From Acidobacteriota bacterium (lineage in GTDB: Bacteria; Acidobacteriota; Terriglobia; Terriglobales; SCQP01), in the NCBI GenBank assembly GCA_021789895.1, contig JAJYIU010000001.1, forward strand, positions 1 to 64,000: 64,000 bases of DNA, read 5' to 3'. The notes under the pieces are model-generated. The model was given only the letters and a program-made list of their open reading frames with translations, had not been told where the DNA came from and searched no databases. Position 1 is the first letter of the stretch. Each line of letters begins with the position of its first letter. The translations under genes were made by a program, and so were the position numbers. Positions 18,540 to 45,968 of this stretch are shown one piece after another.

Positions 18540-18603
18540 AAATAATTCCTGTAACGCGAAGGGAATGAATCGGACGGCTGCTTAAATTTTAATGCGGCCG
18601 CGC

Positions 18604-18645
18604 CGAAAAACAAATCACCCTTCCGGCCGCGTGGACGGAAGGGTG
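18604..18645 (-). terminator. Intrinsic terminator after the zinc-ribbon gene
   Basis: A perfect 10-bp stem (cacccttccg at 18616-18625 with cggaagggtg at 18636-18645, 10-base loop) is followed on the minus strand by ATTTGTTTTT. It lies 30 bases after the stop of the zinc-ribbon gene and separates it from the HAD gene. Confidence 0.85.
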
Positions 18646-18675
18646 AAGATGAAAAGTCTCGAACTATAACCAAAC

Positions 18676-43468: not shown

Positions 43469-43819
43469 ATGCTGAAAATCGGCGAGCGAATCCGGCAGTG
43501 CCGCCTGGAACGCGGCTTTTCCCAGGGCGATATTGAACAACGCACGGGGCTGCTGCGCTGCTATCTCTCCCGCGTCGAAAACGGACATACCGTGCCCTCG
43601 CTGCAGACCCTGGCCAAGATCGCCCGCGCGCTGGAAATTCCGCTGGCGCATTTTTTCTCGGAGAACGAAAACGGCAAGGCCGCGCTGCCGCAGTTATCCG
43701 ACCACGATCTCAGCTTCCTGCAAAAGCTGTACGCTTACACATCGGCCATGAAAGAAAAAGAGCGCGAGCAGGTGCTGGCGCTGGTTAAACGCATGGCCAC
43801 CGAGCCTGCCGCGCATTGA
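43469..43819 (+). CDS. XRE-family transcriptional regulator
   Basis: 116 residues. A helix-turn-helix of the Cro/CI type fills residues 5-60 (IGERIRQCRLERGFSQGDIE then YLSRVENGHTVPSLQTLAKI). The C-terminal half is a charged helix (LQKLYAYTSAMKEKEREQVL) without a known ligand domain. Its stop overlaps the next start as TTGA, so it is translated together with the deaminase-family gene. Confidence 0.88.
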   Translation: MLKIGERIRQCRLERGFSQGDIEQRTGLLRCYLSRVENGHTVPSLQTLAKIARALEIPLAHFFSENENGKAALPQLSDHDLSFLQKLYAYTSAMKEKEREQVLALVKRMATEPAAH

Positions 43820-44874
43820 TTCCCGACGCATCCGCGCCGCCTTCCGGCCTCGCCAGCGGCTATCCCGGGGACTGGCGGGAACGGCTGCGGCGGCTGCCTA
43901 AGGCGGAACTGCATCTGCACCTGGAGGGCAGTGTCGCGCCGCAGGACTTGCGCGAACTGGCGCTTCGCCAGGGCCATGCGGCCGCCGCGGGCCAGGCGGC
44001 GACGCTCTATTCCTACCGCGATTTTTCCGGCTTTCTTCAGGCCTTCAAAACCGTCAGCCAACTGCTCGCCAAGCCGGAGGATTACGCCTGGGTGCTGCGC
44101 CGGCTGGCCAGCGCGCTGAAGGCGCAAGGGGTGGTTTACGCCGAGTTGATCGTTTCCGTCGGGGTGATCCATTGGAAGCGCATGGCGTGGCAACCGGTCT
44201 GGGAGGCGCTGGAGACGGAGCGCCGGCGGATTGCGGCCGATCAAGGGCCGCGCCTGGCCTGGATCTTCGACGCCGTCCGCCAGTTTGGCGACGAGGCCGC
44301 CGCGCAGGTGCTCGAAGAAGCGCTGCGCTGCCGGCGCGACGGGCCGGTGGCGGCGTTCGGCATCGGCGGCGACGAAGCCGCGATCGCGGCGAGCGCGTTC
44401 CGCGCGCTCTATGCCCGGGCCGCGGCGGCGGGGTTGCACACCACCATCCATGCCGGCGAGAGCTGCGGCCCGGAATCGGTGTGGAGCGCGTTGCGCGAAC
44501 TGCGGCCGGAACGCATTGGACATGGCATACAGTCCGCGGCCGATCCCGAGCTGATGGCGCAGCTCGCGCGGGACCGGATCTGGCTGGAAGTCTGCCCTAC
44601 TTCCAATCTGCGCACCGGCGTGACCGCCTCGCCCGCCGCCCACCCGCTGCGGCGGCTCTGGGAGGCGGGCGTGCCCATCACGCTGGCCACGGACGATCCC
44701 GCCATGTTCGAGACCTCCCTGCTGGGTGAATACGAACGGCTGGCGGAATGGGGCTTTGGCTGGAACGACCTGCTGCGGATGTTGGATAATTCTTTCGCGG
44801 CCAGCTTCCTGCCCGCCGACGAGCGGCAGAACTGGCGCGAACGCCTGGCGCAGGCGGCGGGAGCGGGGGCCTGA
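43816..44874 (+). CDS. Adenosine deaminase-family enzyme (adenosine or 6-aminodeoxyfutalosine deaminase)
   Basis: 352 residues. The metal-dependent deaminase barrel is clear: KAELHLHLEGSV (two His ligands), GIGGDE, TIHAGESCGPE (His plus substrate residues), RIGHGIQ, EVCPTSNLRTG and LATDDPAMFETSL (catalytic Asp). The substrate cannot be fixed from sequence: adenosine deaminases usually have GIDLAGDE, and related enzymes act on aminodeoxyfutalosine in menaquinone synthesis. The start is TTG at 43816 within the TTGA overlap with the XRE gene. Confidence 0.85.
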   Translation: MIPDASAPPSGLASGYPGDWRERLRRLPKAELHLHLEGSVAPQDLRELALRQGHAAAAGQAATLYSYRDFSGFLQAFKTVSQLLAKPEDYAWVLRRLASALKAQGVVYAELIVSVGVIHWKRMAWQPVWEALETERRRIAADQGPRLAWIFDAVRQFGDEAAAQVLEEALRCRRDGPVAAFGIGGDEAAIAASAFRALYARAAAAGLHTTIHAGESCGPESVWSALRELRPERIGHGIQSAADPELMAQLARDRIWLEVCPTSNLRTGVTASPAAHPLRRLWEAGVPITLATDDPAMFETSLLGEYERLAEWGFGWNDLLRMLDNSFAASFLPADERQNWRERLAQAAGAGA

Positions 44875-44910: not shown

Positions 44911-44919
44911 TGCTATACT
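44911..44919 (+). promoter_or_regulatory. Extended -10 promoter (TGcTATACT) of the proC leader
   Basis: TG at 44911-44912, one base, then TATACT (44914-44919), five of six matches to consensus. The predicted start of transcription falls on or next to the ATG at 44927. No -35 box is evident. Confidence 0.5.
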
Positions 44920-44926
44920 GCATTGC

Positions 44927-44992
44927 ATGTTCGTCCTTGATCCGCGACCGTGCCCGTGCCCCGCATCCGCGGGCCGCGCCGCGCCGGTCTAG
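44927..44992 (+). CDS. Putative proline-rich leader peptide of proC
   Basis: A 21-codon frame starts 7 bases after the -10 element and ends at TAG, 112 bases before proC. It reads MFVLDPRPCPCPASAGRAAPV, with five Pro codons, four of them within codons 6-12. It is followed by a terminator and then by proC, the last gene of proline synthesis. The arrangement is that of an amino-acid attenuator. High G+C raises the chance of Pro codons, so this is a hypothesis from layout. Confidence 0.4.
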   Translation: MFVLDPRPCPCPASAGRAAPV

Positions 44993-45024
44993 GGCTGTGC
45001 ATCACCTTCGAGCCTGAAAACCCC

Positions 45025-45060
45025 CGCCCGCCGGCCCCTGGCCGCGGGCGTTTGTGTTTT
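45025..45060 (+). terminator. Intrinsic terminator (possible attenuator) upstream of proC
   Basis: The stem is cgcccg (45025-45030) with cgggcg (45045-45050), then a bulged C and cggcc/ggccg (45032-45036/45040-45044), loop cct, followed by TTTGTGTTTT. The 5' arm (gcccgc, 45026-45031) can instead pair with gcgggc at 44969-44974 inside the leader frame. Confidence 0.7.
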
Positions 45061-45104
45061 AGCAACCCCCGGCCCCAGCGGGCTTTACCCGACAGGAGCC
45101 TCAC

Positions 45105-45968
45105 ATGCAAAAGAAAAAAACCGAACCCTCCGTTTCTCCCTTCGGCGGCAATAAAATCGCCATCATCGGCTGCGGCACCATCGGCGAAGCGCTGGCGCGC
45201 GGGATGCTGGCCGCCGGCTTTGCCCAGGTCGGGCAGGTGCAGGCCTCTACGCGCACGCCGGAGCGGGCGCAGAAGCTGCATCGCAGCCTGGGCATCGTCG
45301 CCGGCACCGACAATCGCCGCATCGCCGAAGGCGCGGACGTAGTGGTGCTGGCGGTGAAGCCGCCGCTGGCGCTCACCGTGCTCGACGAAATCGCCGGCGA
45401 GCTGCCCGCCCGCCAGGCGATGGTCGTTTCGGTGGCCGCGGCGATCGGCACCGCGCCGCTGGAGCAGGCGCTGGAGCGCCGCAATGGCAGCTTTGGCGCG
45501 GTCGTGCGCGCCATGCCGAACACTCCGGCGCTGATCGCCACGGGCATGACCGCGCTGGCGCTGGGACGCAAGGTCAGCCACGCGCAGGCGGAACTGGCGC
45601 GCCACCTGTTTCTTTCCATCGGGCGCACCGTGATCGTGGAAGAGCGCCACATGGATGCCGTCACCGGGCTCAGCGCCAGCGGCCCGGCATTCATCTACAT
45701 GGTGGTCGAATCGCTGGCCGAAGGCGGCGTGCGCGTCGGCTTACCCCGCGAGCTGGCGCTGGAGTTAGCGGCGCAAACCGTGGTGGGGGCGGGCGCGATG
45801 GTGCTCGAGACCGGGGAGCATCCGGCCAAGCTCAAGGATGCCGTCACCACGCCCGCCGGCTGCACCGTGGATGGATTGCTGGAGCTGGAAGAAGGCGGGC
45901 TGCGCGTGGCGCTGATCAAAGCCGTCTGCCGCGCCGCCATGCGCGCCGGACAACTGGTGAGCCGGTGA
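45105..45968 (+). CDS. proC: Pyrroline-5-carboxylate reductase
   Basis: 287 residues. The Rossmann motif is KIAIIGCGTIGEALARGML, with VVLAVKPP and VRAMPNTPALI next. The C-terminal dimerisation/active region has LSASGPAFIYMVVESLAEGG and LKDAVTTPAGCTVDGLLELE. It reduces pyrroline-5-carboxylate to proline with NAD(P)H. The ATG at 45105 is preceded by CAGGAGCC. No other proline genes are near. The upstream leader suggests attenuation by proline supply. Confidence 0.96.
   Translation: MQKKKTEPSVSPFGGNKIAIIGCGTIGEALARGMLAAGFAQVGQVQASTRTPERAQKLHRSLGIVAGTDNRRIAEGADVVVLAVKPPLALTVLDEIAGELPARQAMVVSVAAAIGTAPLEQALERRNGSFGAVVRAMPNTPALIATGMTALALGRKVSHAQAELARHLFLSIGRTVIVEERHMDAVTGLSASGPAFIYMVVESLAEGGVRVGLPRELALELAAQTVVGAGAMVLETGEHPAKLKDAVTTPAGCTVDGLLELEEGGLRVALIKAVCRAAMRAGQLVSR

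Follow-up and report, generated by a model that had tools for sequence, protein, structure and literature searches.

The interval between ada and proC in an acidobacterial draft genome quite likely holds a ribosome-mediated attenuator that adjusts proC transcription to the proline supply, a reading that draws on the sequence and on models of RNA folding. The interval lies in the window, the whole 64,000-nt stretch of DNA analyzed here, which corresponds to contig C76 in a draft assembly of 3.7 Mb and in which the gene order is ada, proC, rlmN. A proC match was obtained in 91 of the 100 genomes searched, and the single same-genus relative, G001 (Acidobacteria MAG YP1.bin64, contig JAKASR010000001.1), has a proC that is 83% identical. 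An extended −10 promoter, a 21-codon frame, a stem with a T-run, and a proC ribosome site had been proposed for this interval by a first-pass annotation, and all can be read base for base at the coordinates below. The principal features are:

43816..44874, + strand: ada, adenosine deaminase (TIGR01430, 254 bits), the 5′ neighbor
44911..44919, + strand: extended −10 promoter TGCTATACT, hexamer 44914-44919, identical in G001
44927..44992, + strand: 21-codon leader frame MFVLDPRPCPCPASAGRAAPV, ATG 44927-44929, stop TAG 44990-44992; G001 counterpart MFIRNPRPCPPPHFAGRVTLD
44942..44962, + strand: control region with Pro codons 6, 8, 10, and 12 (CCG CCG CCG CCC), all four Pro in G001
44949..44983, + strand: predicted 1:2 hairpin (44949-44956 with 44975-44983), which would hide region 2 when no ribosome is stalled; 15 of 16 cells paired in the two species
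44971..44976, + strand: region 2 core GGGCCG of the antiterminator, from folding
44992..45015, + strand: helper hairpin GGGCU/AGCCU (44992-44996 with 45011-45015) inside the antiterminator, from folding
45025..45050, + strand: putative 3:4 terminator hairpin CGCCCGCCGGCCCCTGGCCGCGGGCG, −22.4 kcal/mol; all ten of the pairs that were counted on the alignment are intact in G001
45032..45037, + strand: region 3 core CGGCCC, common to the antiterminator and the terminator hairpin, from folding
45051..45060, + strand: T-run TTTGTGTTTT, not kept in G001, which there has TCATCGTCTA
45094..45098, + strand: proC Shine–Dalgarno AGGAG, read from the sequence; G001 counterpart AGGGAG
45105..45968, + strand: proC, pyrroline-5-carboxylate reductase (TIGR00112, 270.7 bits, E 1.4e-80), ATG at 45105

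A probably ancestral promoter ahead of a leader frame

In the window and G001 alike, the leader ATG follows the −10 hexamer by 7 nt. Such proximity is frequent for proC itself: 13 of 28 other proC loci carry an extended −10 (TGnTAnnnT) 6–10 nt before an in-frame proC ATG, among them L012 and L013, two loci of the same family in which, judged by sequence, ada also lies upstream, as it does in G001. At the locus L011, an identical TGCTATACT is located 23 nt 5′ of the ATG. Order-level relatives display a near-uniform TGnTAGCCT 6–7 nt before the proC ATG (L017, L020, L023, L024, L027, L028, L030, L031, L033, L037, and L038), which suggests that a leaderless proC mRNA is the rule.

Since the relatives' proC promoters stand 6–10 nt before the ATG, the corresponding promoter here must transcribe through the leader. 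Transcription of proC from downstream of 45060, which had been named as an outcome that would overturn the attenuator, finds no visible promoter between 45060 and 45104, and it is the −10 at 44911 that matches the proC promoters of the relatives. The earlier hint that the leader peptide may itself be leaderless gains support from the equivalent spacing, 7 nt here and 6–10 nt at proC in relatives; the leader frame is probably leaderless, and its transcript would begin at or beside the ATG. What was ancestrally a leaderless proC promoter thus seems to serve a leader peptide that is itself leaderless. Because the promoter is kept, a leader frame and hairpins separate it from proC, and proC has a Shine–Dalgarno sequence, the most economical history would be one in which the leader was inserted, or grew, downstream of the ancestral promoter. 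The fuller proposal, that the genus gained a leader frame and a terminator/antiterminator pair between a leaderless proC promoter and proC, and with them a leaderless-AUG attenuator through which a lineage without proBA would place its one recognizable proline-specific gene under proline control, we regard as evenly poised. Neither the promoter nor the hairpin was listed by a simple promoter/terminator scan, as this asks for a pair of promoter hexamers and a stem free of bulges, and the hairpin bears a one-base bulge.

The hairpin at 45025–45050 retains 24 of its 26 bases (92%) in G001 and ends 43 nt before the proC Shine–Dalgarno sequence. By itself, a hairpin with a T-run is cheap, as 56 loose matches occur on both strands of the 64 kb window. 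Promoter, hairpin, and T-run together also have the shape of an sRNA gene, or the hairpin could serve as the ada terminator. The promoter at 44911 would then produce an RNA of ~130 nt, ending at the hairpin and unrelated to proline, while proC would have its promoter elsewhere and the Pro codons would be a by-product of GC-rich structure. Better folding of the leader than of its shuffles (z −2.66 and −3.15) fits such an RNA, as does nucleotide-level conservation that is highest in the hairpin and the 1:2 arms and is not clearly codon-like. It is nonetheless unlikely: the leader has no Rfam match, the 44911 promoter is the counterpart of the relatives' proC promoter with no substitute visible at 45060–45104, and at L012 and L013, where ada leads straight into proC, no comparable hairpin separates the two genes. 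Moreover, the stall-dependent switch described below appears in fewer than 1% of dinucleotide shuffles, and two of the four Pro codons have changed synonymously only.

Predicted alternative folds of the leader RNA

The first-pass annotation envisaged classical attenuator logic, in which a ribosome stalled on the Pro codons frees an alternative pairing and one that runs through to the stop lets the terminator form. Its segments, gcgggc at 44969–44974 and gcccgc at 45026–45031, are present as described; folding favors instead a pairing of 44971–44976 with 45032–45037, extended by several helices. The logic itself reappears as predicted on and off states in both species, states that are rare in shuffled sequences. 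These emerged when the leader was folded as exposed RNA for different ribosome positions in the window and in G001. In the ribosome-free leader, fewer than 0.7 expected 2:3 pairs form at every transcript length, and the terminator has a probability of 0.95 and 0.94. With a ribosome stalled at Pro codon 8 and RNA out to 45048, expected 2:3 pairs rise to 11.9 (window) and 9.9 (G001); a stall at Pro codon 6 gives 10.2 and 9.6, respectively. With the ribosome at the stop codon, the terminator forms in the predicted fold of both species, and the result is unchanged for assumed ribosome footprints of +9 to +17 nt. Each of the 16 antiterminator pairs common to the two species is a standard pair in either sequence; one of them has changed on both sides, from U-A to A-U, and two G-C pairs have become G-U.

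At equilibrium, full-length window RNA favors the terminator (0.93–0.94) even when a ribosome is stalled. For G001 the equilibrium fold, too, is the antiterminator, the terminator standing at 0.02 for ribosomes at codons 6 and 8. As the finished window terminator is more stable than the antiterminator, the window switch would have to be kinetic, acting before the terminator completes. During this decision the last bases of the hairpin would still be inside RNA polymerase, within its footprint.

The sequence itself shows the parts, their retention in a single congener, predicted structures that exclude one another, and, by homology, what proC does; we infer where transcription starts, that the frame is translated, that ribosomes stall on it, and that transcription terminates and responds to proline. 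RNA polymerase would start at ~44926 from TGCTATACT, and a ribosome would initiate at or beside the 5′ end on the ATG at 44927. When charged tRNA-Pro is plentiful, the ribosome would reach the stop at 44990 and cover region 2, the hairpin at 45025–45050 would form, and transcription would end in the T-run before proC. When prolyl-tRNA is scarce, a stall at Pro codon 6, 8, or 10 would break the 1:2 hairpin and free 44971–44976 to pair with 45032–45037 before the terminator completes, such that proC is transcribed. Without any translation, the 1:2 hairpin and the terminator would both form, an outcome known as superattenuation.

The leader peptide might instead act on translation, or through a Pro-rich arrest of the poly-Pro/EF-P type, with tRNA-Pro charging and termination playing no such part and termination being weak. 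The G001 peptide does hold a poly-Pro run (CPPPH), its T-run is lost, and the accessibility of its proC Shine–Dalgarno sequence rises from 0.24 in the free leader to 0.35–0.58 in the stalled one. The window peptide, by contrast, is devoid of any Pro-Pro pair, its Shine–Dalgarno accessibility is constant between states (0.32–0.34), and the 43-nt gap separates hairpin from Shine–Dalgarno sequence, which together render this explanation improbable. The constant accessibility in the window favors transcriptional rather than translational control, and control of translation through the proC Shine–Dalgarno sequence was rejected on this ground.

Conservation in a single congener

Absence of the short frame or of its Pro codons from relatives had been put forward as a finding that would speak against the attenuator. 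In the sole congener, the frame is kept without indels at 21 codons, with TAG in the same position and Pro at codons 6, 8, 10, and 12. From window to G001 these four codons read CCG/CCA, CCG, CCG, and CCC/CCG. The window frame has a fifth Pro at codon 20, which is lost in G001, where codon 11 has gained one. Two other residues, Arg at codon 7 and Cys at codon 9 (the PRPCP motif, window 44945–44953), are unchanged as well, such that Pro is not the sole conserved residue of the control region. A hand count on the alignment gives 6, 7, and 10 changes at codon positions 1, 2, and 3 of the frame, a pattern that is not clearly coding and by itself proves no coding, and the identity of the frame alone (65%) is not above neutral (p 0.08–0.13).

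Conservation of the whole element is more pronounced. Across 142 nt, from the −10 through the hairpin, window and G001 align free of gaps with 102 identities (72%), against 84 of 150 identical fourfold sites in proC (56%; binomial p 7.5e-5, Fisher p 0.0035); with two genomes of shared ancestry, this conservation counts as one comparison. The sequence flanking the block aligns with that of G001 only uncleanly. When the hairpin was retained and 44943–45022 shuffled, 1 of 500 dinucleotide shuffles of the window and 3 of 500 of G001 reached the real stall-switch score, and joint column shuffles did so in 0 of 400 cases for the window, 7 of 400 for G001, and 0 of 400 for both; the statistic was devised after the region had been seen, and the values are therefore indicative rather than formal p-values. 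We share the first-pass caution that high G+C yields Pro codons and pairings by chance, and the 65% G+C lowers the weight of the Pro count. That the whole is an incidental short frame in a GC-rich intergenic stretch, its similarity to the congener reflecting slow drift, is nevertheless very improbable: only two genomes are compared, and this composition makes both GC hairpins and frames rich in Pro commonplace, but the gapless block exceeds the fourfold sites, its hairpin is 92% identical, its flanks fail to align cleanly, and no joint shuffle reproduced the switch in both species.

Distribution, pathway context, and known attenuators

No Rfam family matched at its gathering score in the window, with chance-level matches alone at loose local thresholds, which speaks against a T-box or known riboswitch. 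A covariance model run against 397 genomes from the order and 399 from the class returned no homologue beyond the genus; its weak extra matches were coding sequences or unrelated hairpins. A contig scan matched solely JAKASR010000001.1 of G001, which was likewise the sole real match of a BLAST search within the family. The other BLAST matches examined (e.g., L041, L053, and L054) were short, GC-rich, and apparently coding. The scan of proC loci also detected Pro-rich short frames before 3 of the 28 other proC genes, all of them weak, with non-ATG starts, and judged to be chance. In the genera examined outside this one, proC is devoid of such a leader. Before leuA and hisG of both congeners, a simple scan detected no Leu- or His-rich leader, although at L092 the scanned stretch fell within the gene itself.

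The two congener genomes yielded no match to proA or proB above the curated cut-off. In 13 of 14 family genomes proA is under the cut-off while proC is mostly present; 12 of 14 control genomes score. Aminotransferases of the ArgD and PRK05769 types are present, the ornithine aminotransferase model falls below cut-off, and P5C, hence proline, may derive from ornithine. With no recognizable proA or proB, proC is the recognizable proline-specific step and a natural point of end-product control.

In the Bacillus T-box, prolyl-tRNA supply controls proline genes by premature termination, the T-box binding the tRNA directly, whereas no T-box was found at the proC leader. The candidate resembles the trp and his attenuators of Escherichia coli and Salmonella in its short leader frame, enriched in codons for the pathway product, and, by prediction, in its mutually exclusive 1:2, 2:3, and 3:4 regions, its terminator before the structural gene, and its superattenuation state. 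Unlike those attenuators, the present leader pairs proline with proC in an acidobacterium, begins its frame ~7 nt after the −10 with no room for a Shine–Dalgarno sequence, and alternates its Pro codons (PxPxPxP) instead of placing them in a run. A proven Pro-codon leader is mgtP of the Salmonella mgtCBR operon, whose translation controls downstream transcription and where low prolyl-tRNA raises expression (PMC3641672). Paired in tandem with a leader that senses ATP, it governs an operon for Mg2+ transport, whereas the target here would be the proline gene itself. Leaderless polycysteine short frames of mycobacteria have been proposed as attenuators (PMC4633059), and leaderless Cys-rich frames were later reported as such (Canestrari 2020, as cited in PMC9094748). 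They too are short upstream frames enriched in one amino acid before the genes of that amino acid, albeit with cysteine and in actinobacteria; here it is proline, and a terminator/antiterminator pair is visible.

In a broad survey, attenuators of Acidobacteria were almost without assigned function (PMC2965389), and no leader-peptide attenuator of proC or pyrroline-5-carboxylate reductase was found in a literature search covering mostly work outside subscription journals. If true, a proline attenuator of proC would add a phylum and an amino acid/gene pair for which that search found no precedent. It would also test whether leaderless 70S initiation couples to RNA polymerase tightly enough for a classical attenuator, and would illustrate how such a switch could plausibly arise, in the space between a leaderless promoter already in place and the gene it serves.

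Two further hairpins in these genomes bear on the fate of T-rich tails. A strong hairpin with a T-rich tail on the − strand at window 18600–18650 (−20.8 kcal/mol) has a counterpart in G001 (G001:C12:292334, −21.4 kcal/mol) and is likely a real terminator; G001 has retained the tail at this window-18615 site, though it lost the one before proC. A terminator-like hairpin 5′ of the frame that precedes hisG has TTTTTTGTTTT in the window's genome (L094:1001-1100) but CGTTGCCGTCTC in G001 (L095, reverse complement 1001-1100), which makes this the second T-run that G001 lacks.
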